Origin: Candidatus Aegiribacteria sp. MLS_C
Lineage (GTDB): Bacteria; Fermentibacterota; Fermentibacteria; Fermentibacterales; JCC-6
Assembly: GCA_002030045.1 (NCBI GenBank)
Contig: LQBI01000007.1
Location: 1 to 64,000 of the forward strand
Direction of reading: 5' to 3'
Length of the DNA: 64,000 nucleotides
The notes under the pieces were generated by a model. That model made no database searches, was not told where the DNA came from, and saw only the letters and a list, made by a program, of their open reading frames with translations. Shown here one piece after another: positions 16,776 to 33,235 of this stretch (the first letter of the stretch is position 1; every line of letters starts with the position of its first letter). Both the position numbers and the translations under genes were made by a program.

Positions 16776-17687
16776 TCACCTCTCGTGTATCACTGCGGCC
16801 CTGGCGCGTTTCCTTACCTGGGAGAGGAATATGCCGGAGATGATTATGGCCATGCCGATCGTCTTCCTGAGCGTGAAGGTCTCACCCAGCATGAGATAGG
16901 CGGTTATCGCGGTCACCACCGGTATGATGTTGGTGAAGATGTTGGTCCTGCCTATTCCCAGCTCCCTTATGGCCACGGTTATGAAGATGAACGCCAGGGA
17001 GGATCCGAACACGGCAAGCATGACCAGGTCCAGGATCACATGGGTCGGTGGGTCCACCGCCAGGGTGTCCCCCAGTTCGAATCCGAGAACCAGCGGAAGG
17101 AAGTAGAAACCCCCGACGGTGTTCTGTATCCTGACGATGGTCAGGGGTCTGTAGCGGTGGGACATCCTCTTCACGACGAGACTGTAACCCACCGCTGATA
17201 TCACTGCGAAGAGGAGGAACAGCAGCCCGGCGGTGGAAGCCTCCAGCCTGGAGTCGCCGGTGGTAGTGAACACCGCCAGGCCGAGGAAGGAGAATACAAG
17301 CCCTGCTGTGTTCACCATGGAGAGCTTTTCCCTGTAGACCATGTAGGCGAAGAAGGGAGAGACCACCGGTATAAGCCCTATCATTATGGAGGCAAGTGTG
17401 GAGGAGACCCTGAGCAGGCCCAGGCTCTCGCCGATGAAGTAGCAGAAGGGCTCCAGGAAGGCCAGCAGGAGGAACATGGGCCAGTCCTTCCTGTCCACCC
17501 TCTCGCCCCTGCCCGTGAACTTCGCGTACAGGTTCAGGAAGACGGCGGAGATGGCCAGCCTGAAAAGGAGGGTGGTGAAGGGCCCGTAGTACTGGAAGAC
17601 TATCTTGGTCCATACGAAGGATACTCCCCAGAAGAACATTGCTCCCAGGGTCCCGAGGTATACTCCGAGCTTCCTGAAATTCGTCAT
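16776..17687 (-). CDS. EamA/DMT-family transporter
   Basis: 303 residues from the ATG at 17687 (MTNFRKLG), behind AAAGGAC; an upstream extension in frame lacks a ribosome site. Ten membrane helices in two EamA repeats are visible: WGVSFVWTKIVFQYYGPF opens the first and FLFAVISAVGYSLVVKRM the second, with the typical ending GETFTLRKTIGMAIIISGIF. Members of this drug/metabolite family export amino acids, nucleosides or sugars, or take up metabolites; the substrate cannot be told. The C-terminus ends in a basic tail (RKRARAAVIHER). It is divergent from rex, about 215 bp away. Confidence 0.88.
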   Translation of the reverse strand: MTNFRKLGVYLGTLGAMFFWGVSFVWTKIVFQYYGPFTTLLFRLAISAVFLNLYAKFTGRGERVDRKDWPMFLLLAFLEPFCYFIGESLGLLRVSSTLASIMIGLIPVVSPFFAYMVYREKLSMVNTAGLVFSFLGLAVFTTTGDSRLEASTAGLLFLLFAVISAVGYSLVVKRMSHRYRPLTIVRIQNTVGGFYFLPLVLGFELGDTLAVDPPTHVILDLVMLAVFGSSLAFIFITVAIRELGIGRTNIFTNIIPVVTAITAYLMLGETFTLRKTIGMAIIISGIFLSQVRKRARAAVIHER

Positions 17688-17831
17688 GACCGTCCTTTTC
17701 CAGAGGATGTCGATCAGTCCCGGGGTCTTCTGCGCAATCCCGCCGCCGGGGGCGCGGGCCTTGACGGTACCGGGAAGAATAACGAAAAACCGGTGCAGCC
17801 GGATAGATACCGCGTGCTCGAAACGACCCAC

Positions 17832-17860
17832 TTGACACCGGAAATCGGGGGGGATTATCT
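17832..17860 (+). promoter_or_regulatory. Promoter of the rex-mbx operon
   Basis: TTGACA (17832-17837), 17 bases, TTATCT (17855-17860), a near-consensus sigma-70 promoter 42 bases before the rex start. Confidence 0.75.
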
Positions 17861-17869
17861 TCGCTTAAA

Positions 17870-17887
17870 TTGTGAATGTGAACACAA
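17870..17887 (+). promoter_or_regulatory. Rex operator
   Basis: TTGTG-N8-CACAA in 18 bp (TTGTGAATGTGAACACAA), the length and end sequence of the Rex operator described in Gram-positive and other bacteria. It covers the predicted transcription start and lies 15 bases before the rex ATG, so bound Rex would block transcription of its own operon when NADH is low. Confidence 0.8.
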
Positions 17888-17902
17888 TCACATGGAGGTT
17901 GG

Positions 17903-18559
17903 ATGACGTACAGGGACGTTCCCACCGAGACGATGGACAGACTTTTCCTCTACATGAGGGCTCTCACATGCCTCAGGAGGGAGAAGTCCGAGACGGTCTC
18001 ATCCAGCCGCCTTGCTGAGATCTGCAATGTGAACGCGCCCAAGGTGAGAAAGGACCTGTCCTACTTCGGGGAGTTCGGCGTCAGGGGAGTGGGTTACAAC
18101 GTCAACGAACTCCTGGACCATATTCGCAGGATACTGAAGCTGGACCGGTCAGTGAACGTGGCCCTGATCGGAGCCGGGAACATCGGAAGGGCCCTGATAA
18201 CCCACTCGTCCTTCCAGCTGGAGGGATTCAACATCTCCATGGCCTTCGACATAGACCGGGAGAAGATCGGCACAAGGGTCGGCTCCATAACCGTCGAGGA
18301 CATGATGGACTTCCCCGACAGGGTCGAGGAGGAGGGAATAGACCTGGCCATCCTGGCGGTGCCGGAGGAAGTGGCTCCGGAGATAGCCCGAATAATAGCC
18401 GACACGAACATCATCTCCATACTGTCCTTCGCACCCTGCGAACTCTGCATGCCTGAAAACGTGAAGGTCACATGCGTCGACCTGAGCATGGAAATGGCGC
18501 GTCTGCTCTACAATTCCAGGCAGACCGTCACAAGGAAGAAGAAGGAAAGGAAACCCTGA
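17903..18559 (+). CDS. rex: Redox-sensing transcriptional repressor Rex
   Basis: 218 residues. The N-terminal winged helix has the family sequence VSSSRLAEICNVNAPKVRKDLSYFGEFGVRGVGYNV (residues 30-67), and the Rossmann domain that reads NADH/NAD+ follows with ALIGAGNIGRALI near residue 91 and the domain-swapped C-terminal helix. Rex dimers bind their operator when NAD+ dominates and leave it when NADH rises. GGAGG sits five bases before the ATG, and an operator-like site overlaps the start of transcription. The rex stop is separated by one base from the first antiporter gene, so the repressor and the ion-pumping complex form one transcription unit and rex is probably autoregulated. Confidence 0.96.
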   Translation: MTYRDVPTETMDRLFLYMRALTCLRREKSETVSSSRLAEICNVNAPKVRKDLSYFGEFGVRGVGYNVNELLDHIRRILKLDRSVNVALIGAGNIGRALITHSSFQLEGFNISMAFDIDREKIGTRVGSITVEDMMDFPDRVEEEGIDLAILAVPEEVAPEIARIIADTNIISILSFAPCELCMPENVKVTCVDLSMEMARLLYNSRQTVTRKKKERKP

Positions 18560-18560
18560 G

Positions 18561-19121
18561 TTGAGCGTTGAAGAACGAGAAGGCGCGGCGGCGGGACCGG
18601 TGGACGACGAGGGCGCGGCAGGGACCGGCGGTTTTCGAAGCGCCCTGTACATGTTCGTTCTGCTGTTCCTTACATGGATACTGCTCACCTTCAGCCTGGA
18701 CTGGCAGGAGCTGGCAGCCGGTGCCGTGGTCTCCCTGGTGATAACCCTGTTCTTCGAAGGCAGCTACAGGGCCATCGGCCTTCCCACCCTTTCCCCCAGG
18801 AGGCTCTGGTACATGCTTGTCTACGTGGTGGTCCTGGGCTGGGCGATCATCAAGGCCAACCTGGACGTCGCCATCAGGATACTGAACCCGAAGCTTCCCA
18901 TCAGGCCCGGCATAGTGGTCATAAGGACCGGGCTCACCAGCAGCATGGCGAAGCTGGTGCTGGCGAACTCCATAACCCTCACTCCCGGCACCTTCACCCT
19001 GGACGTGATAGGCGACAGGCTGCTGATCCACTGGATAGACGTCAGGGCCGAAGGCCTGGAGGAGGCCACGGGAATAATAAGCGGGACGTTCGAGCGTTAC
19101 CTTAAGGAGATCTTCGAATGA
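18561..19121 (+). CDS. mrpE: MrpE-type antiporter subunit (MbxA/MbhA homologue)
   Basis: 186 residues, TTG start one base after the rex stop; a GTG at about 18600 is an alternative because the first 30 residues are poorly conserved. Two or three membrane helices (MFVLLFLTWILLTFSL, AAGAVVSLVITLFFEG, YVVVLGWAIIKANLDVAIRILNP) are followed by a cytoplasmic domain with GIVVIRTGLTSSMAKLVLANSITLTPGTFTLDV, the MnhE signature. In Mrp antiporters and in Mbh/Mbx complexes this subunit helps assemble the Na+-translocating part. It overlaps the next gene by four bases. Confidence 0.92.
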   Translation: MSVEEREGAAAGPVDDEGAAGTGGFRSALYMFVLLFLTWILLTFSLDWQELAAGAVVSLVITLFFEGSYRAIGLPTLSPRRLWYMLVYVVVLGWAIIKANLDVAIRILNPKLPIRPGIVVIRTGLTSSMAKLVLANSITLTPGTFTLDVIGDRLLIHWIDVRAEGLEEATGIISGTFERYLKEIFE

Positions 19122-19378
19122 CGGAGACAGTGGCACTGGTATACGCGGGAGTCATGGGCCTCGGCATCCTGCTCTGCCTTCTGAGGCTCCTGATGGGCCC
19201 CACGGCTGCTGACAGGGCTGTCGCATCCGACACCGCATGCACCGTAACCACGGCGCTTCTGGTGCTGATGGCCCACGTTTTCAAGAGGTACATCTACCTT
19301 GATGTGTCGCTCGTGTACGCCCTTCTGACGTTCATCGGCGCGGTGGCCATCGCCCGCTATCTCGAGAGGGGGATCTGA
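19118..19378 (+). CDS. mrpF: MrpF-type antiporter subunit (MbxB homologue)
   Basis: 86 residues, three membrane helices, with LLMGPTAADRAVASDTACTVTTALLVLMA in the centre, the typical MnhF pattern. In the membrane it contacts MrpE and MrpG in the sodium-translocating module. ATG overlaps the previous stop (ATGA), and the stop abuts the next ATG. Confidence 0.93.
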   Translation: MTETVALVYAGVMGLGILLCLLRLLMGPTAADRAVASDTACTVTTALLVLMAHVFKRYIYLDVSLVYALLTFIGAVAIARYLERGI

Positions 19379-19720
19379 ATGGTTCTGGAAGCCGTGGGAA
19401 CCGTGGTCACAGGCATCGGCGCGGCATTCCTCCTCGTGGGAAGCCTGGGAGTCTTCAGAATGCCCGATGTCTACAACAGGCTTCAGGCCGGGACGAAGTG
19501 CACCACTCTGGGTGCGTGCCTGGCCATCGTGGGAGTCGGCATAATGGAGCCTTCGTGGCTGCCCAAGACCCTGCTGATAGCCGGGTTCATACTCCTTACC
19601 AACCCCATCTCGAACCATGCCCTGGGGAGGGCTTCGCGCAAGAGCGGCGTGGAACTGTGCCGGAGGTCGGTAGTGGACATGACCGATTCCCTGGGCGAAT
19701 ACGGGAAGGAGGGGGAATGA
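19379..19720 (+). CDS. mrpG: MrpG-type antiporter subunit (MbxC homologue)
   Basis: 113 residues with three membrane helices. The conserved core GSLGVFRMPDVYNRLQAGTKCTTLGACLAIVGVG (residues 21-54) is diagnostic of MnhG, followed by LLTNPISNHALGRASRKSG. It starts directly after the mrpF stop and overlaps the next gene by four bases. It is part of the MrpE-F-G group thought to form part of the sodium path. Confidence 0.93.
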   Translation: MVLEAVGTVVTGIGAAFLLVGSLGVFRMPDVYNRLQAGTKCTTLGACLAIVGVGIMEPSWLPKTLLIAGFILLTNPISNHALGRASRKSGVELCRRSVVDMTDSLGEYGKEGE

Positions 19721-19956
19721 TCTTCCTGGTTGCATTCCTTGTGCTGGTCATGCTGGCGGCAGCCATCGCGGCGTTTTTCTTCAGGGACCTGCTCAGCGCG
19801 GTGATAGCCTCCTGCATAGTCAGCCTGATCGCATCCATCATCTTCTTCCTCCTCCAGGCGCCGGACGTGGCAATGGCCGAGGCATCGATAGGGGCGGCCC
19901 TGCTCACAGCGATCCTCATCATAGCCATTCGAAGGACCGGGAGGTACGAGGAATGA
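19717..19956 (+). CDS. DUF4040 antiporter subunit (MbhD homologue, MrpA-derived)
   Basis: 79 residues starting at the ATG (19717) that overlaps the mrpG stop. Three membrane helices; LLSAVIASCIVSLIASIIFFLLQAPDVAMAEASIGAALLTAILI corresponds to the segment that is fused to the C-terminus of MrpA in standard antiporters and is a separate gene, mbhD, in archaeal Mbh/Mbx operons. The acidic APDVAMAEA loop lies in the membrane and is likely part of an ion path. The separate gene supports the Mbx-like rather than the standard Mrp layout. Confidence 0.88.
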   Translation: MIFLVAFLVLVMLAAAIAAFFFRDLLSAVIASCIVSLIASIIFFLLQAPDVAMAEASIGAALLTAILIIAIRRTGRYEE

Positions 19957-20639
19957 GAGTTCTTCTGAGTCTCGCGGTGGTCGCCGTCCTTGCTGCCGGG
20001 ATCGTCACCGTGCTTCGGGACGTTCCCTTCGGCGGAAACTCCAGTCGGCTGGGGTCGCACTTCGTCGAGAACGGCAGGGAGGATACAGGCGCGGCCAACA
20101 TCGTCACCTCGGTGGTCCTTGGCTACAGGGGCTTCGACACCCTCGGGGAGGTAACGGTGCTGTTCGTTGCGGCAGTTGGTCTGGGGGCGCTCCTGGTCGC
20201 AGGGGAGAAGAACGCTCCCCGTAAGCTGGAGAAGGCCAGTATGGTCCTCACGACAGGAAGCAGGTTCCTGTTCCCGCTAATCCTCCTGTTCGGTGCCTAC
20301 ATCTTCATTCACGGGCACCTTACGCCCGGAGGAGGCTTCCAGGGCGGAGCGATCATCGCGTCGGGATACCTGCTGGTCTACCTGGGTTCCAGGGACCGGC
20401 GTCTCGGTAAGAACTGGGCCGCCTCCATCGAGACCGGGGGAGGTCTGACCTTCGTCCTGCTTGGACTGGCCGGGCTCACCGCGGCGGGGCACTGGTTCCT
20501 CTCGAATTTCCTTCCCCTTGGTGTTCCGGGTCAGCTGCTGAGCGCCGGAATAATACCGATCATCTACGTCGCCATCGGCCTCAAGGTCGGAGTGGAACTC
20601 ACCGGGGTCATCGACAGCCTGATGGGGGGTACCGAATGA
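19953..20639 (+). CDS. mrpB: MrpB-type subunit fused to an MbhE-like segment
   Basis: 228 residues. The first ~90 (two helices with VLRDVPFGGNSSRLGSHFVENGREDTGAANIVTSVVLGYRGFDTLGEVTVLFVAAVG) match the MbhE/MrpA tail domain; the rest (ILLFGAYIFIHGHLTPGGGFQGGAIIASGYLL and the long C-terminal helices) is a MnhB domain. In archaeal Mbh the two are separate proteins, MbhE and MbhF, so this is a fusion. It overlaps the preceding and following genes by four bases. Membrane location and antiporter role follow from the family. Confidence 0.9.
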   Translation: MRVLLSLAVVAVLAAGIVTVLRDVPFGGNSSRLGSHFVENGREDTGAANIVTSVVLGYRGFDTLGEVTVLFVAAVGLGALLVAGEKNAPRKLEKASMVLTTGSRFLFPLILLFGAYIFIHGHLTPGGGFQGGAIIASGYLLVYLGSRDRRLGKNWAASIETGGGLTFVLLGLAGLTAAGHWFLSNFLPLGVPGQLLSAGIIPIIYVAIGLKVGVELTGVIDSLMGGTE

Positions 20640-20995
20640 CCTTCCTGAACGAGTACGCCTTTTACATAGGAGCCTTCGGCCTGATCCTCATCGGTCTTCT
20701 GACTATCCTGCTGCGGCACCATCTCATCAAGCTGATAATCGGCCTCAGCATCATGGAGACGGGCATCAACCTGTTCCTGATCGCCATCGGCTACATCTCA
20801 AGGGGTACGGCCCCCATCTTCCCGGTGGACGGCGGCGCCGGAACCGTCATGGTGGATCCGGTACCGCAGGCGCTGGTCCTGACGGCCATCGTCATCGGGG
20901 TCGCCGTCCTCGCCATGGCACTGGGAATGGCCATCAGGCTCCATGGGCACTACGGCACCCTGGACATGCGCAGAATAAAGGAGCTGAAATGGTAA
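20636..20995 (+). CDS. mrpC: MrpC/NuoK-type antiporter subunit (MbhG homologue)
   Basis: 119 residues, three membrane helices: GLILIGLLTILLRHHLIKLIIGLSIMETGINLFLIAIGYI, then DPVPQALVLTAIVIGVAVLAMALGMAIRL, the NuoK/MnhC pattern with an acidic residue (METGIN) in the second helix and LVLTAIVI in the third. It would line the lateral proton/sodium channel between the large pump subunits. It overlaps both neighbours (ATGA before, 7 bases after). Confidence 0.94.
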   Translation: MTFLNEYAFYIGAFGLILIGLLTILLRHHLIKLIIGLSIMETGINLFLIAIGYISRGTAPIFPVDGGAGTVMVDPVPQALVLTAIVIGVAVLAMALGMAIRLHGHYGTLDMRRIKELKW

Positions 20996-22455
20996 ACCCT
21001 GTTCTTCTCCTGGCCGTGCCGATGGGGCTTGCCTTCACCGTACCGGTGATCGAACGCATCACCGGCAGGGTCTCCCGCTGGGTGCCCGTTGCGGCCATGC
21101 TGTTCAACCTGGTCCTCTGCGTGAGGCTCATTCCCGCGGTGCTGGAAGGTCCCGTGATCGTCCAGCTGGGCGGATTCGTACCGCCCTTCGGCATCAACCT
21201 CTACGTGGGGCCCCTGGGGCTGTTCTTCGCCGGTCTGATCGCACTGGCCGGGCTGGTGATCTCCGTCTACAGCCTGACCTACATACGGACCGGACCCCTG
21301 GCCCGTTACCACATGCTCTACATCCTGCTCCTGGTGGGCGCCACAGGCGTGGCGCTGACCGGGGACCTCTTCAACCTCTTCGTCTTCTTCGAGATACTGT
21401 GCATCTCCTCCTATGCCCTTGTGGCCTACAACGGTGACCGGGCAGGACTCGAGTCCTCGGTCAAGTACCTCATTCAGGGATCGGTGGGCTCCAGCATGCT
21501 CCTTGTCGGCATCGGAATGCTGTACGGAATCTTCGGGACCCTCAATATGGCGGACATCGCCCGAAGCGTGGGTATGGTGGACCAGGGGGTGCTCTTCGTC
21601 CCCCTGATCTTCATGCTGGGAGGACTCGGGGTGGAAGCCGCCATCTTCCCGATGAACGCCTGGCTGCCGGACGCGCATTCCTCGGCCCCCTCTTCCATCA
21701 GCGCCGTCCTGTCAGGCATAGCCATCGAGGTCGGACTCTACGCGGTGGCCCGAATGGTCTTCACCGTCTTCGGAATCTCGGACCTGTTCCTTTTCCTTGC
21801 CTTCCTCGGTGTCCTCACTCTGCTTATCGGGGAGATGTGCGCCTTCGCCCAGAGCAACATCAAGCGGATGCTGGCCTATTCGAGCATCGGCCAGATAGGG
21901 CTGATCCTCTTCGCCCTGGCCGTGGCGTCCGGAGTCACGGTGACCGGCGGCCTCTTCCAGTTCGTCAACCACACCTTCAGCAAGGGGCTGCTGTTCCTTT
22001 CCGCCGGTTACCTTATCTACCGAAGCGGTTCCATGGAGATCTCCTCCCTTCAGGGGATGGGGCGTCGAATGCCCCTCACCTCCCTGGCCTTCACCGTGGG
22101 GTCCTTCTCCCTGGTGGGCCTGCCCCCTTTCGCCGGCTTCCCGGGCAAGTTCCTGATCGTCCGCGGTGCGCTGGAACGGGGAGGGACGGTGATAGTTGTC
22201 CTCACCGGCCTGGTGCTGCTTTGTACGATCCTGGAGGGTGCCTACTTCTTCCGGGTGGTGCAGGCGCTCTACTTCCGGGAAGGGATATCCGGAGGCTCCG
22301 GCGAGAGGGCCCCGGCGGCGGCAGCGGTGGCCATGATACTGCTCATGATGCTCATACTGGCGCTGGGTGCTTATCCGCAGTTCGCGGAAACCTTCCTCCG
22401 CTCCGCCGCCTCGGACCTCATGGGCGCGGTTGAACACGTTGGGAGCGTGCTGTGA
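20989..22455 (+). CDS. mrpD: Ion-pumping subunit, MrpD/NuoM type (MbhH/MbxH homologue)
   Basis: 488 residues, about 14 membrane helices. Conserved residues of the antiporter-like fold are visible: an acidic residue in LFVFFEILCISSYALVAY (helix 5), the lysine-containing GLGVEAAIFPMNAWLPDAHSSAPSSISAVLSG (helix 7-8) and QSNIKRMLAYSSIGQIG, then VNHTFSKGLLFLSAGYL with the channel lysine. It is the first of two large pumps in the operon. The start ATG overlaps mrpC by seven bases. Role: moves H+ or Na+ across the membrane in step with electron flow in the hydrophilic arm. Confidence 0.95.
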   Translation: MVNPVLLLAVPMGLAFTVPVIERITGRVSRWVPVAAMLFNLVLCVRLIPAVLEGPVIVQLGGFVPPFGINLYVGPLGLFFAGLIALAGLVISVYSLTYIRTGPLARYHMLYILLLVGATGVALTGDLFNLFVFFEILCISSYALVAYNGDRAGLESSVKYLIQGSVGSSMLLVGIGMLYGIFGTLNMADIARSVGMVDQGVLFVPLIFMLGGLGVEAAIFPMNAWLPDAHSSAPSSISAVLSGIAIEVGLYAVARMVFTVFGISDLFLFLAFLGVLTLLIGEMCAFAQSNIKRMLAYSSIGQIGLILFALAVASGVTVTGGLFQFVNHTFSKGLLFLSAGYLIYRSGSMEISSLQGMGRRMPLTSLAFTVGSFSLVGLPPFAGFPGKFLIVRGALERGGTVIVVLTGLVLLCTILEGAYFFRVVQALYFREGISGGSGERAPAAAAVAMILLMMLILALGAYPQFAETFLRSAASDLMGAVEHVGSVL

Positions 22456-24317
22456 TGACGGGTGTAGAGATCATTCTTGCAGCGGCATTCGCCGGAGCCC
22501 TTCTGACCTGGTTCATCGGCCGCACCTCCTCCACCGCGGGAAGCGCGTTCGCGGTGGCGGTACTCCTCGCTCTGACGGCCCTGGTCGCCCTCCTGCACGG
22601 CCGGGTGTACGAGACCGTTTTCTACAGAGGTTTCCTGGGCCTTCCCATGAGCCTGAGGACGGATTCCCTCTCCTGGTTCTTCGCCATGGCCACCACGGTG
22701 CTTGCGGCTCTCTCGGGCATCTTCTCCCTCAGCTACATGAAGGACCGGAAGAACACCGGGTTCTTCAATACGATGCTCCTGCTGGTTAACGCAGCCATGC
22801 TGGGCGTGGTCTTCTCCGGAGACCTGCTCTCCTTCTTCATCTTCTGGGAGATAATGAGCTGGTCCACCTTCCTCCTCATAAGCTTCAACCGGGGACAGGG
22901 CGTCAACGCCGGCCTGAAGTACATCGTCATGTCCCTTGTGGGATCCATGGCCATGCTTGTAGGGATCGGGTGGCTGCTGGGCGCCTTCGGGACCCTGAAC
23001 ATCGCCCGGCTGTCGGAGCTGATACCCTCCGCCTCCGGCGGTCATCAGCTCGTACTCCTTCTCCTGTTCGGCATCGCCTTCGGGATCAAGAACGCCGTGA
23101 TGCCGCTGCATACATGGCTGCCGGACGCCTACACCGAGGCCCCGTCCCCGTTCACCGCCGTCCTCTCAGGCATGCTGACGCGAATGGGCATCTTCGGCTT
23201 CCTGCTGATACTCTACGTTATGGCAGGAGCCGCCCGTGTGCTTCATTCACCGGGATCGACGGTCCCGACGTACAACGTGGTCCTCGCCTGGCTGGGAGCC
23301 GTAACCATAGTCGTCCCGACGTTCATCGCAATGCTTCAGAACGACGCCAAGAGACTCCTTGCATGGCACGGCATCGGACAGGGCGGGTACATGATTCTGG
23401 GCATGGCATTCGGGACCGGCATGGGCCTGGCGGGGGGTATCTTCCACACACTGAACCACGCCATCTACATCGTCCTGCTCTTCATGAGCGTGGGGGCGGT
23501 CCAGCACCGGACCGGCGGCGTGCGGGACCTGAACTCGCTGGGCGGACTGGCCAGGAAGATGCCGGTGGCCTTCATCGGTGCCCTGATGGGAATATCCGGC
23601 CTGATCGGTGTGCCCCTGACCAACGGCTTCGTCTCCAAGTGGATGATCTACCGGACACTGATCCTGGGCGGGGCGCCGTTCCTGGCGTTCGCCGCGCTAA
23701 TAGGGTCCTGGGGAACGATCCTTTCGGTCTACAAGTTCCTGCACAACGTCTTCCTGGGCCAGCTGCCATCGAAGTACGAGAATGTCCGGTCGTCGCCCGT
23801 CAGCATGAAGATACCCATCCTGGTGCTCTCCTTCGCCATACTCCTGTTCGGGATCCTTCCGGGCCTGCCTCTGAAGGTGATCGACGGCATCGTCGTCTCC
23901 TTCGGTCTGCCGTCCCTGGACGTTTCCCTCTGGGGTATCGCCTCCGAAGCGGGCACGCTCAACACTGTGAACCTCTTCGCCGCCCTTGCTGTGGGCGTCC
24001 TGGTGGTCCTGGCATTCGTCCGGATACTTGGGAGGAGCGAAAGGGTCGGCCAGGACAGCAATTACTCCGCCGGATGCGGCGTCCCCCGGGATCGCTACAA
24101 CTACACGGCAAGGTACTACGATCCGCTGTTCCGAATGATCTCCCCCTACCTGAAGGATTTCTTCAGCACCCTGTACGACGGGCTGGCACGGGGGATCGGC
24201 TCCCTGTGCGAAGCCGTAAGGATGATCTATACCGGGTACGTCTCCAGTTATGTCATGTACATTCTTCTTTTCATCTCGGCGATGATCTTCATCCATCTAA
24301 CCTGGAATCCGTGGTGA
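22452..24317 (+). CDS. Second ion-pumping subunit, NuoL/HyfB type (MbxH' homologue)
   Basis: 621 residues, about 15 membrane helices plus a C-terminal extension ending in two hydrophobic segments (YVMYILLFISAMIFIHLTW). Core motifs match the antiporter-like family: FFIFWEIMSWSTFLLISF, GIAFGIKNAVMPLHTWLPDAYTEAPSPFTAVLSGMLTRMG, QNDAKRLLAWHGIGQGGY and LNHAIYIVLLFMSVGAV. The presence of two such pumps in tandem is the hallmark that separates Mbx operons (H and H') from Mbh ones. The start at 22452 overlaps the previous stop by four bases. Confidence 0.93.
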   Translation: MMTGVEIILAAAFAGALLTWFIGRTSSTAGSAFAVAVLLALTALVALLHGRVYETVFYRGFLGLPMSLRTDSLSWFFAMATTVLAALSGIFSLSYMKDRKNTGFFNTMLLLVNAAMLGVVFSGDLLSFFIFWEIMSWSTFLLISFNRGQGVNAGLKYIVMSLVGSMAMLVGIGWLLGAFGTLNIARLSELIPSASGGHQLVLLLLFGIAFGIKNAVMPLHTWLPDAYTEAPSPFTAVLSGMLTRMGIFGFLLILYVMAGAARVLHSPGSTVPTYNVVLAWLGAVTIVVPTFIAMLQNDAKRLLAWHGIGQGGYMILGMAFGTGMGLAGGIFHTLNHAIYIVLLFMSVGAVQHRTGGVRDLNSLGGLARKMPVAFIGALMGISGLIGVPLTNGFVSKWMIYRTLILGGAPFLAFAALIGSWGTILSVYKFLHNVFLGQLPSKYENVRSSPVSMKIPILVLSFAILLFGILPGLPLKVIDGIVVSFGLPSLDVSLWGIASEAGTLNTVNLFAALAVGVLVVLAFVRILGRSERVGQDSNYSAGCGVPRDRYNYTARYYDPLFRMISPYLKDFFSTLYDGLARGIGSLCEAVRMIYTGYVSSYVMYILLFISAMIFIHLTWNPW

Positions 24318-25207
24318 CGAAGATGATCTGGTATGTACTTTCACCGCTGATAGCACTGGTCGTGGGCATACTCCTGATGGGGCTGTCGCGAAAGCTCCTG
24401 GCCAGGATCCACTGGCGCGTCGGTCCTCCGATCCTGCAGCCAGTGATCGACCTGATCCGGTTCCTGAGCCAGAAGAGCGCCTCCCATGGCTTCCTCTTCG
24501 ATTCGGGACTGATACTCTCGCTGGCGGGATCCCTGGTGCTCACACTCTTCCTCCCGCTGGGCCAGTACACTCCGATGAGCGGGTCCGGCGGGCTTCTGGT
24601 GATCCTCTACGTGATGCTGCTGGGCCCTCTCGGAATAGCCTTCAGCAGCGGGGGTGCGGCCAATCCTTACGCCAGCATCGGCATCTCAAGGAAGCTGATG
24701 CTGGCCATGGGCTACGAGCTGCCGCTGCTGCTCATCGTGCTGACGGTGATGACCGGATACCGTACGATCTCCATCGTGGAAGTCGTGAGGATCCAGCAGG
24801 CCCAGGGATGGGCCATCGCCACCTTCCCGCTCCTTCTCTCGGCGCTGGCCTACATCCTCATCCTTCCGGCCATCCTGGGAATGAGGCCCTTCGAGGTGGT
24901 GGGCGCCGCCCAGGAGATATCCTCGGGACCCGTGGTGGAGTTCGGCGGACCCCACCTGGCCCTTTCCACACTTCAGCACGCTCTGACGACCTACATCGGC
25001 CTTTCCCTCTTCGTGAACCTGATGCTGGGAGGGGGTTCGAATCCCGTATTCTTCCTCCTGAAGATGCTGGTGGTCTTCGTCCTGTGCCTCTGCGTCCATG
25101 CGGTCTTCCCGCGATTCAGAGTGGACCAGGCGATACGGTACCTCTGGCGCTGGCCTGCCCTCGTTGCCATGGCGGGCCTGGTGCTGACGGTACTCATGGG
25201 AGGTTAG
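24314..25207 (+). CDS. NuoH-type membrane anchor subunit (MbhM/MbxM homologue)
   Basis: 297 residues from the GTG at 24314, which overlaps the previous stop as GTGA; an ATG three codons later is possible. About eight membrane helices with the NuoH signatures GPPILQPVIDLIRFLSQK near residue 40, ASIGISRKLMLAMGYELPLLL, and LPAILGMRPFEVVGAAQEISSGPVVEFGGPHLALSTLQHAL, the acidic loop that joins the hydrophilic arm to the membrane arm; it ends in PRFRVDQAIRYLWRWP. It transmits the redox energy from the NuoB/NuoD homologues to the pumps. Confidence 0.93.
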   Translation: MTKMIWYVLSPLIALVVGILLMGLSRKLLARIHWRVGPPILQPVIDLIRFLSQKSASHGFLFDSGLILSLAGSLVLTLFLPLGQYTPMSGSGGLLVILYVMLLGPLGIAFSSGGAANPYASIGISRKLMLAMGYELPLLLIVLTVMTGYRTISIVEVVRIQQAQGWAIATFPLLLSALAYILILPAILGMRPFEVVGAAQEISSGPVVEFGGPHLALSTLQHALTTYIGLSLFVNLMLGGGSNPVFFLLKMLVVFVLCLCVHAVFPRFRVDQAIRYLWRWPALVAMAGLVLTVLMGG

Positions 25208-25210
25208 CGC

Positions 25211-25768
25211 ATGGACCGGAACCAACTAGTCAAATGGCTCGAGTCTCCCGCGAAGATGGGTCACAAGTATTCCCTGCACGCGGTGTATTTCTGTACGGGG
25301 TGCGGGATCATAGAGGTCCCGCCCTCCATAACGGCAAGGTGGGACGCGGAGAGGTTCGGCGTGCTGCCCTCCGCCTCGCCCAGGCATGCCAACCTCTTCC
25401 TGATAACCGGCTACGTATCCGTGAAGACGCTCCGGGCGATCATCCAGACCTACGACCAGATGCCGGAGCCCAAGTACGCGGTAGGGTTCGGTTCGTGTCC
25501 CATAAACGGCGGAATGTACTGGGACTCCTACAACACCATAAAGCACCTGGACAAGTACATACCCATAGACGGCTGGATAGCGGGATGCATGCCCCGTCCC
25601 GAGGCGATATTCGTTGCGGTGACCCATCTCTGGACCCTGATAGACAAGGACATGGCGGACGGCTACAAGAGGTACAGGAAGCACTACGCCGCCTACAGGG
25701 CCAACCAGGAGAAGGCCCTGCCGGGTCTTGACTGGCCGCCGCTCTTTCCCCTGGAGGGTTCCGAATGA
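25211..25768 (+). CDS. NuoB-type iron-sulfur subunit (MbhJ/MbxJ homologue)
   Basis: 185 residues. Four cysteines to hold one [4Fe-4S] cluster are at 28 and 31 (FCTGCGIIE), 95 (GSCPINGG) and 126 (GCMPRPEA). The CxxC spacing at 28/31 is that of [NiFe]-hydrogenase small subunits and Mbh/Mbx, not the adjacent-Cys pair of complex I. The cluster would pass electrons to or from the site between this subunit and the NuoD-like one. The gene begins three bases after the NuoH stop and overlaps the next start by four bases. Confidence 0.94.
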   Translation: MDRNQLVKWLESPAKMGHKYSLHAVYFCTGCGIIEVPPSITARWDAERFGVLPSASPRHANLFLITGYVSVKTLRAIIQTYDQMPEPKYAVGFGSCPINGGMYWDSYNTIKHLDKYIPIDGWIAGCMPRPEAIFVAVTHLWTLIDKDMADGYKRYRKHYAAYRANQEKALPGLDWPPLFPLEGSE

Positions 25769-26286
25769 GGGATATGGGGACACTGCTTGAACAGCTGACC
25801 TCGACTTTCGACGGGGTCCGGGCAAGACTGGACGATGACGGCAGGATGAGGCTGGAGGCGGAAAAGGAATCGGTGATGTCCCTCCTCAGCTTCCTGAGGG
25901 ATTCAGGTTTTGACTTCCTTCAGATGGTTTCCTGCGTGGACTGGATCGACCGCGGCAGTATGGAGCTGGTGTACGTTCTCTCCAGTTATCCCTCCACGGA
26001 TGGCGGGAGCGGGGACCTCCTCTACTGCATCCTCAAGGTGGAGCTGCCCAGGGACCGGGCACGGACGGTCTCTGTGATACCGCTCTACGAATGCGCGGAA
26101 CCGTACGAGAGGGAGATACATGAGCTGTTCGGGGTCGACTTCCACGGCCATCCCCGTCTCACGCCGCTTTTGCTGGAGCGGGAATATCCGGTCCCGCCCT
26201 TCAGGAAGGACTTCGACACCAGGAAGTACGTGAGCGATTTCTTCGACAGCATCCCTCCTGTGGAAGAGGAGGGAGGAGCACAATGA
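25765..26286 (+). CDS. NuoC-type 30 kDa subunit (MbhK/MbxK homologue)
   Basis: 173 residues. The conserved part of the 30 kDa complex I subunit is clear at the C-terminal half: SVIPLYECAEPYEREIHELFGVDFHGHPRLTPLLLER, then PFRKDFDTRKYV. It binds the NuoD-like subunit and stabilises the hydrophilic arm; no cofactor is expected. Overlaps of four bases on both sides show translational coupling with the NuoB and NuoD homologues. Confidence 0.93.
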   Translation: MRDMGTLLEQLTSTFDGVRARLDDDGRMRLEAEKESVMSLLSFLRDSGFDFLQMVSCVDWIDRGSMELVYVLSSYPSTDGGSGDLLYCILKVELPRDRARTVSVIPLYECAEPYEREIHELFGVDFHGHPRLTPLLLEREYPVPPFRKDFDTRKYVSDFFDSIPPVEEEGGAQ

Positions 26287-27380
26287 GAGAACTCGAACTT
26301 TACTTCGGTCCCCAGCACCTTGGCATGGTGGGCAACTTCAGCATAACCCTCCAGGTGGAGGGCGACAGGGTGGTGAAGGCCGATGCCAACCCGGGATTCC
26401 TGCACAGGGGCTTCGAGAAGCTCATGGAGCAGAGGAGCTGGATAAAGAACTTCCCCATGGTGTGCAGGATGAACGTGGTGGAGCCGGACTCCATGGAGAT
26501 GATATACGCCATGGGTGTGGAGAAGCTGGCGGGAATAGAGGTCCCGGAGCGGGCCCAGTTCGTTCGGAGCATCTACCTGGAGCTGGCAAGGGTCGGATCC
26601 CACCTTTTCGGGCTCTGGGCCTACGCCAACATGCTGGGGTTCGACACGGTTGCCCAGTGGGCCATGTACCACAGGGACCTTGTCCTGGACCTCTTCGAGG
26701 AGCTGACCGGAGGCAGGGTCTACCACATCTACATCTGGCCGGGAGGCGTAAGGCGGGACTTCCCCGCCGGCTTCGAGAAGAGGATGGTGGAGACCCTACA
26801 TTCCATAGGCGGTTGCGTGCCCGACTACGACGACACCTTCTTCAACAACTCCCTCTTCCGCAGCCGGGCATCGGGAGTGGGTACCGTGACCAGGGAACAG
26901 GCCCTGAGGATGGGCGGCAGCGGACAGGTCCTGCGGGCCACCGGCGTACCCTTCGACGTACGCAAGGCCGAGCCCTACGCCGCCTATTCCAGTGTGCCGT
27001 GGGAAGTGCCCACCAGGGAGAAGGGCGATGCCTACTCCCGTATATGGGTAGTTCGTGACGAGATGATAGAGAGCGTCCACATGATCTTCAAGCTGCTTGA
27101 CTCCATGCCGGGAGGCAGCGTCTACACGCGGATACCGAATCCCTTCAAGTGGCGCATCCCCGAGGGGGATGCCTACGTGCGCTGTGAATCTTCAAGGGGA
27201 GAGCTGGGACTGTACCTGGTGAGCGACGGGGGCGACAAGCCCTACAGGGCCCACTTCAGGACGCCCTCCTACCCCCACGGGCTCACCGTGCTGGAACACG
27301 CCCTGGAAGGGGCGAACATATCCGATGTGGGGAACATCATGATAAGTCTTTACGTGGTCGCTCCGGAAATTGACAGGTGA
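26283..27380 (+). CDS. NuoD/hydrogenase-large-subunit homologue without nickel ligands (MbhL/MbxL type)
   Basis: 365 residues with the 49 kDa subunit fold: GPQHLGMVGNFSITLQVEGDRVV at the start, GFLHRGFEKLMEQRSW (38-53) and MGVEKLAGIEVPERAQFVR. In [NiFe] hydrogenases four cysteines, in two CxxC pairs, hold the metal. Here the first position is Cys61 (FPMVCRMN), its partner is Asn64, and the C-terminal end (NIMISLYVVAPEIDR) has no cysteine, so it cannot carry a standard NiFe centre. This matches Mbx/Ehr-type complexes. It probably forms, with the NuoB-like subunit, the site where redox chemistry drives ion pumping. Which oxidant is used here, if any, cannot be read. Confidence 0.92.
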   Translation: MRELELYFGPQHLGMVGNFSITLQVEGDRVVKADANPGFLHRGFEKLMEQRSWIKNFPMVCRMNVVEPDSMEMIYAMGVEKLAGIEVPERAQFVRSIYLELARVGSHLFGLWAYANMLGFDTVAQWAMYHRDLVLDLFEELTGGRVYHIYIWPGGVRRDFPAGFEKRMVETLHSIGGCVPDYDDTFFNNSLFRSRASGVGTVTREQALRMGGSGQVLRATGVPFDVRKAEPYAAYSSVPWEVPTREKGDAYSRIWVVRDEMIESVHMIFKLLDSMPGGSVYTRIPNPFKWRIPEGDAYVRCESSRGELGLYLVSDGGDKPYRAHFRTPSYPHGLTVLEHALEGANISDVGNIMISLYVVAPEIDR

Positions 27381-27402
27381 ATGATGCGCGGGGGTGTCGA
27401 CA

Positions 27403-29253
27403 ATGGCTAGACCGAGTCTGCTGAAGCCCTTCAGGGCGGTGAGGTTCCTGTTCAGGAAACCGAGGACGCTCAGGTACCCCTTCCAGCTCAAGGAGCCGGC
27501 CGCAAGGTACAGGGGTTTCCACCTGAACGACTGGGACCTCTGCACGGGGTGCGGGAACTGCGCCGACATATGTCCCAACGAGGCCATCGAGATGGTTCCT
27601 CAGCCCGACCTGATCCCGGAACCCGGGACCAAGAACGAGAGGCCGCGCCTCGATTACGGGAGGTGCTGTTTCTGCGGGCTCTGCGTCGACATATGCCCGC
27701 CGGCCTCCCTGAGGCTCTCCCGGGACTACTTCCACATACATTTCGATCCCGGCACCTTTGTCTTCACTCCCAGGGACGAGAAGACAGACGACAGTAACTT
27801 CGTGCCGGACGAGGGCTACTCGGTGCTGAAGGCCAGCCTCAGCCACAGGAAGAGGGATTACGAGGGGTTCAGCTCCGACCTGGACTACGCGCTCTTCGAC
27901 CCTCAGCGGGTGGAGATGCCTGAGCTGCCGCCGGAGGAGAGGAAGAAGTCGTTCATAGAACAGGTGCTCGGCTACAGCAGGGAGCAGGCGGTCAGAGAGG
28001 CCGAGAGATGCCTGGAATGCCGTCTCTGCGAGGAGGCCTGTCCTGCGGGACTGAGAATATCCGAGTACGTGGAGGCCATCTACAGGGACGAACCGGAGGA
28101 ATCTCTGAGGATAATCCTGGAGGACAATCCGATACCTTCCATCTGCGGCAGGATCTGCATGAAGCACTGCGAGGACGCCTGTTCTCTCAGGTTCAGGGGT
28201 GAATCCGTGGCCATAAGGTGGCTCAAGAGGTTCGCGGCGGATTCGGTGCGCAGCTTCCGTGACGCCCTGGAGGCCTCTCCCGGCGAACCGACAGGTAGGA
28301 GGATAGCGGTGGTGGGCGCGGGTCCCAGCGGCCTGTCGGCCGCCTACTTCCTGAGGCTCCTGGGACACGGGGTCACCGTGTTCGACGAGAGGGAGGCGGG
28401 AGGCGGAATAATCAGGACAGGGCCTCCGCGGTACAGGCTGCCCATGGAGAGCATAGACAGGGACGTGGACTACATAGCCTCGCTTGGAGTGGAGTTCCGC
28501 TTCAACACCAGAGTGGGCAGGGATATCCGGTTCGCCGACCTGCAGAATGATTTCGATGCGGTCTTCATAGGGACCGGCTATACCATCAGCCGCTCCACGA
28601 GGGTGGAGAACGCCGACAGGTGCCTGCTGGCGCTGGATTTCCTGGAGAGGAACAAGACCGGTGACCCGGTGAAGGTGACGACGGAAGTCATAGTCATAGG
28701 CGGAGGCAACGTGGCCATGGACGTGGCACGGGAGGCTCTGAGGCTCCAGTACATCCAGCACCCCGGCGTCGAATGCAGCGTGAAGACGGTTTCCCTGGAG
28801 GACTGGGACCAGATGCCCGCCACCGAGGAGGAGATCCGGGAAGCCCGTGAGGAGGGAATAGTCTTCAATCCGGCCTGGGGTCCGGACATGGTCCTGCTGG
28901 ACGGCGGCGGCGGCATCATCGGACTGCAGTGCAAGAAGGTCAGGTCTGTATTCGACGGCGAGGGCCGCTTCGCACCCACCTTCTACGAAGAGCAGAAGAT
29001 GGTCATTCCCGGGTCCATGATTATCGAGGCCATCGGCCAGGGAGCGGACCTGTCCTTCATTCCGGAGGAGCTGCTGAAGGACCTGGAGTACACTCCTAGA
29101 AGGAAGGTCAGCGTGGATGAGAACGGCATGACCTCCATCAGAGGGATCTTCGCCGGAGGCGACATCGTCAACGTCAACATGGACGCCGTCACGGCCATCC
29201 GGGACGCCAGGACCGCCGCCGAGGGAATCGACAGGTGGCTCGCCGGCAGGTAA
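27403..29253 (+). CDS. Fusion of MbhN/NuoI ferredoxin subunit with GltD/NfnB-type NAD(P)H flavoprotein
   Basis: 616 residues from the ATG at 27403; a GTG three codons earlier is possible. Residues 1-105 are a NuoI/MbhN-like subunit with two [4Fe-4S] ferredoxin motifs, Cys47/50/53/57 and Cys88/91/94/98. After a ~95-residue linker comes a complete GltD/NfnB-type module: CLECRLCEEACP and CGRICMKHCEDAC for two more clusters, VVGAGPSGLSAAY for FAD and VIGGGNVAMDVA for NAD(P)H, ending in GIFAGGDIVNVNMDAVTA, a conserved FAD-domain motif. It is the last gene of the operon. It would let the complex exchange electrons with NAD(P)(H) directly, in place of the NuoEFG module of complex I. Separate GltD-like genes occur near Mbx operons in Thermotogae; the fusion is the unusual part. 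Confidence 0.9.
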   Translation: MARPSLLKPFRAVRFLFRKPRTLRYPFQLKEPAARYRGFHLNDWDLCTGCGNCADICPNEAIEMVPQPDLIPEPGTKNERPRLDYGRCCFCGLCVDICPPASLRLSRDYFHIHFDPGTFVFTPRDEKTDDSNFVPDEGYSVLKASLSHRKRDYEGFSSDLDYALFDPQRVEMPELPPEERKKSFIEQVLGYSREQAVREAERCLECRLCEEACPAGLRISEYVEAIYRDEPEESLRIILEDNPIPSICGRICMKHCEDACSLRFRGESVAIRWLKRFAADSVRSFRDALEASPGEPTGRRIAVVGAGPSGLSAAYFLRLLGHGVTVFDEREAGGGIIRTGPPRYRLPMESIDRDVDYIASLGVEFRFNTRVGRDIRFADLQNDFDAVFIGTGYTISRSTRVENADRCLLALDFLERNKTGDPVKVTTEVIVIGGGNVAMDVAREALRLQYIQHPGVECSVKTVSLEDWDQMPATEEEIREAREEGIVFNPAWGPDMVLLDGGGGIIGLQCKKVRSVFDGEGRFAPTFYEEQKMVIPGSMIIEAIGQGADLSFIPEELLKDLEYTPRRKVSVDENGMTSIRGIFAGGDIVNVNMDAVTAIRDARTAAEGIDRWLAGR

Positions 29254-31036: not shown

Positions 31037-33235
31037 ATGCTCAGAGTGATGATTACCTGTTCGCTCCTTGCGTCTTTCGCATTCGCGGAAGTACTCTATC
31101 GATCCGGGGAGCAGGTGGAACCGGCCCTGTACCTGGGCACTGACGGCGAGGGCATTCTCGTCGAGTTCAACTTGCCCGCGCTGACCGCGGAGGAGCTGGT
31201 CGTGGGTGAATACGGTCCGGGCACCGTGATGAGGATCCCCGGAGAGGGAGTAGGAATGCCCGTAGGCGCTCCGGACCTCCCGGTGATCCGGCGGATGGTC
31301 CTGTTGCCCAATACAGGCGACGTCTCGATCGAGATCGTGTCCTCCGAATGCACCTCTCTCGGTATCTACGACATTCCTCCGTTCCAGGAGTTCCCCATCA
31401 GGAGCGGCGGAGCCGCCCCCTACAGGATAGACGACGGCATATACTCGAGTTCGGATCTGTATCCATACCAGCCGGTGGTCCTGGACAGGATAAGCATCCT
31501 CAGGGACATCAGGGTGGCCTGGGTTTACTTCTCACCGGTGCAGTACGATCCCGTGACCGGCCAGACTTTGCTCAACACATCGGTCACCGCCAGGCTCGTG
31601 GTCTCCGGCAGCGGCGAGAACGAGATATACAGGCCCTTCAGGGGCTACACCAGGAGCTTCATGCCCCTGTACGAGCAGGTGCTGGGCTTCCAGGGCGGAG
31701 GCACCGACGTCATCGACGGCTCCTACCTGGTCATCGGGCCCCAGGAGGGGATCGACCTGGTCTCCGGCCTTGTGGAATGGAAGAGGCAGAAGGGCCTGGA
31801 GGTCTTCATAGGCACCGTCCCAGAGATAGGCGGGACGGCCGCCGAGATAGACGACTACATAGAGGACGCCTACAACACATGGCCGAACCCTCCCGAATGG
31901 GTGCTGCTGGTGGGCGACGAGTACAACGTGCCGGTCTACTACTCCAGCGGCACCGCGGCCGACAACCAGTACGGGGTCATCGGCACCGGATACGACCCCA
32001 GCGTCCACATCGGAAGGCTCTGCTCAGACACCGGCGACCTCCCCTACGTGGGCTGGAAGATAGAGGCCTACGAGAACGATCCCTTCGAGCCGGATCCCAG
32101 CTGGTTCCAGTACGCCATAAGCATCGGCTCGACTGATTTCCAGGATCCCTGGATGTCCTGGAGGTACGAACAGATATTCGAGGCTCACGGCATGCCCACC
32201 ACGCTCTACTGCAACAACACCTCCTACGGCGGCATACCGCCTACCATAGCCCTGATATCCGCCGACGTGAACAGCGGTATCTCCCTGCTCAGCTACATCG
32301 GCCACGGAAGCACCCAGTCCTGGGGCACAACCGGCTTCAGCAACAGCGATGTTGCCGCGCTTTCCAACGACCGCAGGCTGCCGTGGATAAGCTCCATAGC
32401 CTGCTACAACTCAGAGTTCCAGGGAGGCACGACCTGTTTCGGCGAGGCCTGGATGAACGAGGGGGACGTAAACGACCCGAAGGGAGCCATAGGCTTCATG
32501 GGTGCCACCACCGGCAGCCCGGTGGGTCCCACCGACTCCCTGGCCCTCTACCAGTTCCGCGGGTACTTCGAAGAGGAAATGTACCACATGGGCGCCGCCT
32601 TCGACTACGGCAAGATCATGGCCTACTACATCTTCGGCTGCCCGGAGATGGACATCTTCTGCACTACCGGACCGCTGGTGCATCTCGCCGTCGACCACCC
32701 CGACTGCATCGAACCCGGTCCCTGGACGGTGACCGTGACCGCCGACGGCGTTCCCGTGGAAGGCGCCCTGGTTGGAATAGTCCAGGACACCACCTTCCTC
32801 GAGAGCGGCTACACGGACGCTTCAGGTGCGGCAGCCCTGGATATCCCCGCCATTCCCGGCACCGACTGGGTGACGGTCACGGCCACGGCCCACAACCTCT
32901 ACCCGTGGGTCGGTTCCGTTCCGGTATCCGGCCTGGGTGTCGAGGAGGGAACGAACCCCGGCGTGTTCAGTCTGTCCGTGGGACCCAACCCGTTCTCCTC
33001 GGCGGCCACATTCAGCTACACCCTGCCGGTGTCAGGCCGAATGTCGCTGGACGTCTACGACCTCACCGGCAGGCTGGTGACAAGCGTGGTCTCCGGAGAG
33101 CAGCCGGCTGGATCCCATTCCGTACAGTGGCAGGGAACCGGTGACGGCGGAAGTCCTGTACCGGGAGGAATGTACCTTGTGAGGCTCACGGCAGGCGGCG
33201 AGGCGCTTAACAGGTCCTGCGTCCTGATCCGCTGA
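31037..33235 (+). CDS. C25 (gingipain-type) cysteine peptidase with C-terminal sorting domain, copy 1
   Basis: 732 residues. After a signal peptide and a pro-region, the caspase-like C25 domain spans about 235-570: the catalytic His lies in SYIGHGSTQSWG, the catalytic Cys in ISSIACYNSEF, and VLLVGDEYNVP is the preceding strand. An Ig-like domain follows, and the last ~90 residues (SVGPNPFSSAATFSYTL ... VPGGMYLVRLTAGGE) are a FlgD-Ig/Por-type C-terminal domain that in Bacteroidetes directs secretion by type IX. It is probably a cell-surface or secreted protease for protein breakdown. GGAGG precedes the ATG, and a good terminator follows at 33254. A second C25 gene is at 44969. Confidence 0.9.
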   Translation: MLRVMITCSLLASFAFAEVLYRSGEQVEPALYLGTDGEGILVEFNLPALTAEELVVGEYGPGTVMRIPGEGVGMPVGAPDLPVIRRMVLLPNTGDVSIEIVSSECTSLGIYDIPPFQEFPIRSGGAAPYRIDDGIYSSSDLYPYQPVVLDRISILRDIRVAWVYFSPVQYDPVTGQTLLNTSVTARLVVSGSGENEIYRPFRGYTRSFMPLYEQVLGFQGGGTDVIDGSYLVIGPQEGIDLVSGLVEWKRQKGLEVFIGTVPEIGGTAAEIDDYIEDAYNTWPNPPEWVLLVGDEYNVPVYYSSGTAADNQYGVIGTGYDPSVHIGRLCSDTGDLPYVGWKIEAYENDPFEPDPSWFQYAISIGSTDFQDPWMSWRYEQIFEAHGMPTTLYCNNTSYGGIPPTIALISADVNSGISLLSYIGHGSTQSWGTTGFSNSDVAALSNDRRLPWISSIACYNSEFQGGTTCFGEAWMNEGDVNDPKGAIGFMGATTGSPVGPTDSLALYQFRGYFEEEMYHMGAAFDYGKIMAYYIFGCPEMDIFCTTGPLVHLAVDHPDCIEPGPWTVTVTADGVPVEGALVGIVQDTTFLESGYTDASGAAALDIPAIPGTDWVTVTATAHNLYPWVGSVPVSGLGVEEGTNPGVFSLSVGPNPFSSAATFSYTLPVSGRMSLDVYDLTGRLVTSVVSGEQPAGSHSVQWQGTGDGGSPVPGGMYLVRLTAGGEALNRSCVLIR

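Follow-up and report, generated by a model that had tools for sequence, protein, structure and literature searches.

A rex-led Mbx operon ending in an MbxN-GltD/NfnL fusion gene in Candidatus Aegiribacteria, and its predicted role as an NADH-linked relative of sulfane reductase

Background

The closest described relatives of the system considered here are two membrane complexes, the MBS (formerly MBX) of Pyrococcus furiosus, solved as 6u8y, and the 13-subunit MBX of Thermotoga maritima. Sulfane reductase catalysis in P. furiosus has been ascribed to a three-cysteine cluster of the MbsJ subunit (PMC7684303), while the T. maritima complex, described as a ferredoxin-dependent sulfur reductase, is encoded by a known, sulfur-induced mbx operon whose mbxA rises 4.4-fold with sulfur (PMC9431562). 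Here we describe a related operon from Candidatus Aegiribacteria sp. MLS_C, a member of the Fermentibacterota, at positions 17870-29253 of a 64,000-nucleotide stretch of contig LQBI01000007.1 (hereafter the window). The observation of a rex-led Mbx operon whose last gene is an MbxN-GltD fusion is confirmed, and we consider the chances somewhat better than even that its product is an NADH-linked, ion-pumping sulfane or disulfide oxidoreductase, an analogue of complex I with a different NADH module.

Compared with the P. furiosus MBS, the window complex has the same 13 subunit kinds and two antiporter subunits, and likewise a three-cysteine J site of identical loop length without NiFe or quinone residues. 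The two differ in that MbsN stands alone and receives electrons from ferredoxin whereas MbxN is here fused to a GltD/NfnL domain, and in that the MbsL cysteines C85 and C385, which have been shown to be dispensable, are replaced by Asn and Val in the window MbxL. T. maritima has a protein of the same fused kind as the window operon, but its MBX is read as ferredoxin-dependent and the window complex as NADH-linked; in the literature examined on the T. maritima complex we found no mention of an NAD(H) domain. The C-terminal part of the window protein resembles NfnL/NfnB (T. maritima 4ylf, P. furiosus 5jca) in fold and cysteine motifs, whereas Nfn has an NfnS partner and the Arg-Arg pair for NADPH, and the window protein has no NfnS, carries Leu-Glu and is joined to MbxN. 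The likeness to complex I would lie in the entry of NADH at the far end of an iron-sulfur chain leading to a NuoB/NuoD/NuoH junction, together with antiporter-like pumps. Complex I, however, has NuoEFG and quinone residues, whereas the window complex has a GltD-type module predicted to take NADH, no quinone residues and an Mrp-like Na+ module.

Architecture and distribution of the fusion protein

The fusion reading frame is open without an internal stop to its end at 29253 and begins either at GTG 27394 (619 residues) or at ATG 27403 (616 residues), of which the ATG, 22 bases past mbxL, is the more likely start. Residues 1 to about 120 form a NuoI/MbxN dicluster ferredoxin, and from about residue 167 the protein is GltD/NfnL-like, with a Fer4_20 domain containing two complete Cys4 motifs followed by Pyr_redox_2 (FAD and pyridine-nucleotide Rossmann folds). 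Across the fusion, all four complete Cys4 motifs are conserved. When the single chain was modelled with AlphaFold, the GltD part was predicted with high confidence and adopts the NfnL fold (TM-score 0.86 to 5jfc_L), and the N-terminus and interdomain linker were modelled at low confidence.

An assembly artefact or frameshift was considered as the source of the fusion and rejected, since the GltD part lies in the same frame as the N-domain in 67 of 71 loci (two are out of frame and two stop at contig ends) and the fusion recurs across genomes including that of T. maritima. The uninterrupted 616-residue frame reported in a preliminary description of this locus is thus upheld. A scan of genome contigs recovered 58 loci with relatives of the fusion protein, and full-length fusions occur under about twenty phylum-level labels, as taken from record titles; most of these records are metagenome-assembled genomes, and individual labels may be wrong. 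One operon on a contig labelled as a Thermoplasmata archaeon, for instance, is nested among Zixibacteria and is probably a binning error. The fusion directly follows mbxL in every full-length copy whose flanking sequence could be examined.

Searches with MbxJ in 385 genomes gave two clear score classes, with 46 hits at or above 143 bits and the next at 115. Seven of these 46 operons are cut off by a contig edge ahead of their last gene; among the remaining 39, the fusion is present in 37, and a stand-alone MbxN in two. The stand-alone forms (179 and 176 residues) belong to complete Mbx operons, L133 and L134, which group in a tree with P. furiosus MbsL at moderate support. In the sampled genomes, then, bacterial Mbx complexes usually have the fusion, and the earlier premise that known Mbx operons have a separate MbxN does not hold as a rule, being valid only for P. 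furiosus and a few bacteria.

The fused protein is, moreover, already catalogued in databases without a function. The model NF010590/PRK13984 ('putative oxidoreductase') has both domains in one chain, as does the window protein, and carries no function; it aligns to residues 3-617 of 619. The window protein scores 686 bits against it, below the curated cut-off of 946, and is a distant relative of the T. maritima fusion. The cut-off is reached by T. maritima, the sole control genome with a full-length match above it, and by 25 of 38 genomes of one order. We found no open-access paper that names the fusion or PRK13984, and earlier discussion elsewhere cannot be excluded.

A sulfane reductase-type active site

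The Mbx subunits A, B, C, D, E, G, H, H', J, K, L, M and N are all present in the single operon, and among solved structures 6u8y matches subunits H, H', M, J and L best (scores in Table 1), in agreement with the Mbx-type assignment first given to the locus. Gene calls and domain matches revealed no NuoEFG module within the operon, again as described previously.

In P. furiosus the catalytic site of MbsJ is a proximal [4Fe-4S] cluster whose ligands are C28, C93 and C123, with C25 too far away to bind, and the loop is three residues shorter than in MBH (PMC7684303). The window MbxJ aligns to MbsJ without gaps, placing C31, C96 and C126 at the three ligand positions and C28 at the position of the spare C25, and it has the short MBS loop (FCTGCG-IE), which in hydrogenase-type MbhJ is longer by three residues. 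This loop length is common to all fusion-bearing operons examined, while hydrogenase-type relatives in the same loci have the longer CTGSCNNC. The spare cysteine is Ala in two relatives and Gly in two related Fermentibacterota clades (L120-L126 and L128). Since it can be lost, three ligands would suffice for the cluster, which on evolutionary grounds alone supports a three-cysteine type.

The window MbxL lacks the CxxC pairs for NiFe, of which group 4 NiFe hydrogenases have two, and aligns Val at both quinone positions, H38 and Y87 of Nqo4, so that neither a hydrogenase nor the usual quinone site is expected. The MbxL of L120-L126 and L128, whose MbxJ has lost the spare cysteine, retains a CxxC motif, CRIC, close to where the first NiFe pair would lie. 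By homology, the expected acceptor of the window complex is sulfane sulfur or a disulfide, and sulfane sulfur reductase activity is predicted from the MBS-type site. In the antiporter-like subunit MbxH, bacterial relatives carry Lys, Gln, Gly, Leu or Ala at the position of K250 in MbsH; bacterial Mbx complexes thus do not conserve this pump residue.

Nucleotide site of the GltD/NfnL domain

In NfnL and GltD, the second Rossmann strand ends in a VYRR motif that binds the 2'-phosphate of NADPH, and loss of the Arg pair together with gain of a Glu usually indicates NAD(H). The window fusion and nearly all of its close relatives read VSLE-DW in place of VYRR, with Leu-Glu for Arg-Arg, which suggests that the window site prefers NADH. 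By the same motif, use of NADP(H) is expected for a sister clade of the same genus and family, which reads VSYRR. The preliminary description had left the nucleotide as NAD(P)(H); for the window protein, the motif narrows this to NAD(H). One genome (G031) contains three types of fused Mbx operon (L126, L127 and L128), two with the NADH-like LE and one with the NADPH-like YRR. Its mbxL includes a copy identical to that of a Candidatus Fermentibacteraceae MAG (L036), and a neighbouring genome (G020) shares an identical mbxL with Candidatus Fermentibacteria Bin_206 (L037), in line with the placement of the window in the Fermentibacterota.

The source genome also encodes a 1221-residue, soluble, NfnABC/StnABC-like protein on contig C31 that keeps YRR. 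This protein, GltD joined to a molybdopterin oxidoreductase, lies with NuoE and NuoF at C31:184000-198617, a locus that resembles a bifurcating NfnABC/StnABC transhydrogenase. RnfC and RnfD are encoded as well.

Operon organisation and Rex control

The operon is headed by rex, which is followed by 12 genes encoding the membrane and peripheral arms of Mbx and, last, by the fusion gene; all are on the + strand and overlap or nearly touch (Table 1).

Table 1. Coordinates in the window of the operon genes and of the sequence elements before them
Feature	Position	Strand	Basis
Promoter-like site TTGACA-18-TATCTT	17832..17861	+	10/12, consensus match only
Rex-operator-like element TTGTGAATGTGAACACAATCACAT	17870..17893		two overlapping sites with 2 and 3 mismatches
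rex, redox-sensing transcriptional repressor, 218 residues	17903..18559	+	NF003993, above cut-off
mbxA, MrpE/MnhE-like	18561..19121	+	PF01899
mbxB, MrpF-like	19118..19378	+	PF04066
mbxC, MrpG-like	19379..19720	+	PF03334
mbxD, MbhD	19717..19956	+	PF13244; its ATG overlaps the mbxC stop
mbxE, MbhE + MnhB	19953..20639	+	PF20501 + PF04039
mbxG, MrpC/NuoK-like	20636..20995	+	PF00420
mbxH, MrpD/NuoN-like antiporter subunit (Proton_antipo_M)	20989..22455	+	best solved match 6u8y_H 341 bits, next 243
mbxH', second antiporter-like subunit (Proton_antipo_M)	22452..24317	+	6u8y_X 268 bits, next 208
mbxM, NuoH-like membrane anchor	24314..25207	+	6u8y_M 217 bits, next 79
mbxJ, NuoB-like	25211..25768	+	6u8y_J 215 bits, next 118
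mbxK, NuoC-like	25765..26286	+	PF00329
mbxL, NuoD-like	26283..27380	+	6u8y_L 345 bits, next 238
Fusion, N-terminal MbxN/NuoI domain, two [4Fe-4S] motifs CTGCGNCADICP and CCFCGLCVDICPP	27403..27790	+	
Fusion, C-terminal GltD/NfnL domain, two [4Fe-4S] motifs, FAD Rossmann GAGPSG, NAD(H) Rossmann GGGNVA...VSLEDWDQMPA	27892..29253	+	

The sequence TTGTGAATGTGAACACAA at 17870-17887 is two positions off the Rex consensus and lies 8 bases 3' of the promoter-like site and 15 bases 5' of the rex start (ATG 17903); the position 17870 from which the preliminary description counted the locus is thus the first base of this site. The whole genome contains four operator-like sites, against two for a reversed control pattern. 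A longer form of the operator, TTGTGAATGTGANCACAATCACAA, occurs with slight variants 5' of rex at five other loci, and in four operons that lack rex, good sites precede mbxA (shuffle p < 0.01); in other phyla, such sites precede rex or mbxA at 8 loci at shuffle p<0.01. A near-consensus site at a promoter-like element that recurs in this way makes Rex control of the operon, as originally proposed, likely. Operons of the predicted NADPH type are headed by rex as well, and in two Aerophobetes loci a rex-like gene lies directly 3' of the fusion gene (L050, 10913; L086, 8574).

The divergent gene for an EamA transporter (16776-17831) has a promoter-like site on the minus strand (17854-17887) that shares bases with the Rex operator, and because of this overlap it may be co-controlled with the operon. 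Comparison of neighbouring genes across loci revealed no conserved neighbours beyond the operon itself that hint at a substrate. In the window, a gingipain-like C25 peptidase with a FlgD-like C-terminal domain is encoded at 31037-33235.

Possible functions of the complex

The sequence itself shows which genes are present, that the fusion is in a single frame, the motifs for cysteine ligands and nucleotide, and a site like a Rex operator. For the NADH-linked oxidoreductase that we favour, we infer the cofactors, electron route, donor, acceptor, direction, pumping and repression as follows. The 13 subunits would form a respiratory complex of the MBX/MBS type that has an NADH module of its own, in which a hydride passes from NADH to the FAD of the GltD-like domain and electrons then travel along the fused subunit's four [4Fe-4S] clusters to the proximal one in MbxJ. 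There, in a chamber formed by MbxJ, MbxL and MbxM, the site-differentiated iron of a cluster held by three cysteines only would cleave the S-S bond of polysulfide or another disulfide. Coupling would run via MbxM, MbxH and MbxH' to proton movement and via the Mrp-like module to Na+. Operator-bound Rex would repress the operon at high NAD+ and leave it as NADH rises, and a complex released under such conditions would serve to dispose of excess NADH. The simplest route that uses every part starts at NADH and leads via FAD and the four clusters to MbxJ and on to sulfur.

It should be noted that several points weigh against this scheme. Under standard conditions NADH and polysulfide lie only some tens of millivolts apart, which would leave little for pumping unless ferredoxin joins or in vivo ratios are unusual. 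Electron transfer across the fusion linker is unproven, because the linker is modelled at low confidence, and the preference for NADH is read from the motif alone. MbxH has Glu at the central lysine of transmembrane helix 8 of P. furiosus MbsH (K250) and Gln at H330. No sulfur genes were found to be conserved beside the operon when its neighbours were compared across loci, and the source genome yielded no NSR/CoA-disulfide reductase.

The small energy span is the point at which a scheme with two donors would do better, ferredoxin being the main donor to sulfane and supplying the energy that NADH alone lacks, and the GltD domain either letting NADH join by confurcation or acting as an uncoupled ferredoxin/NAD valve. 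The conserved MbxN docking domain and the NfnL fold, which carries the bifurcating flavin in Nfn, are consistent with such an arrangement, but the operon contains no gene for the NfnS partner ([2Fe-2S] and FAD), and we regard it as unlikely on balance. The circuit suggested in the preliminary description, in which ferredoxin is oxidised at MbxN, NAD(P)+ is reduced at the GltD flavin and ions are pumped as in Rnf, has in its favour the completeness of the GltD domain, the delivery of electrons from ferredoxin to MbxN in the P. furiosus MBS (PMC7684303) and a similar proposal once made for P. furiosus Mbx, as cited in PMC6349859. However, a direct path from MbxN to the flavin bypasses MbxJ, where coupling occurs, and would leave most of the complex idle; MbxJ retains the MBS catalytic site; and the Rnf of the source genome already serves the ferredoxin-NAD reaction. 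The circuit is thus poorly supported and, in our judgement, rather improbable. Quite doubtful, too, is a second NADH-driven complex I in which the GltD/NfnL module, fused to the NuoI-like subunit, bifurcates or confurcates at its flavin, so that NADH and ferredoxin jointly drive S-S cleavage and pumping, and in which NADH- and NADPH-type paralogues in one cell couple the nucleotide pools via the ion gradient.

The complex might also run in reverse, oxidising sulfide, persulfide or thiols at MbxJ while the ion gradient pushes electrons uphill to NAD+. The same operon, with fusions 39-44% identical, is present in sulfur-oxidising Pseudomonadota (Lamprocystis, Parasulfuritortus, Thiotrichales), where the complex may run backwards, and the Riftia symbiont expresses a putative Mrp-Mbx whose direction is unknown (PMC11636981). 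For the window this is very unlikely, as the Fermentibacterota, described as obligate fermenters with a possible link to sulfur (PMC5763382), need to lose electrons, and a Rex-controlled operon suits NADH disposal. Distant matches to NiFe large subunits and to complex I would allow a degenerate energy-converting hydrogenase or a quinone-dependent complex. Both were rejected on the residues of MbxL, which has no CxxC and has Val for both the quinone His and Tyr, and either identity appears extremely improbable. The source genome has, in addition to two further NiFe hydrogenases, a separate group 4 Mrp-linked hydrogenase-like operon, which likewise speaks against the hydrogenase.

Implications

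What is new here is the presence of an MBS-type active site across the fusion family, the split between NADH and NADPH motifs, and the recurrence of Rex operators. The fused subunit remains nameless in databases despite its wide distribution. If the complex is NADH-linked, a respiratory step that takes electrons from NADH to sulfur compounds exists in many uncultured fermenters, and current annotations, which read glutamate synthase, NADH dehydrogenase fragments or hydrogenase, miss it. The prediction of NADH as donor would also bear on the MBX of T. maritima, at present described as dependent on ferredoxin.

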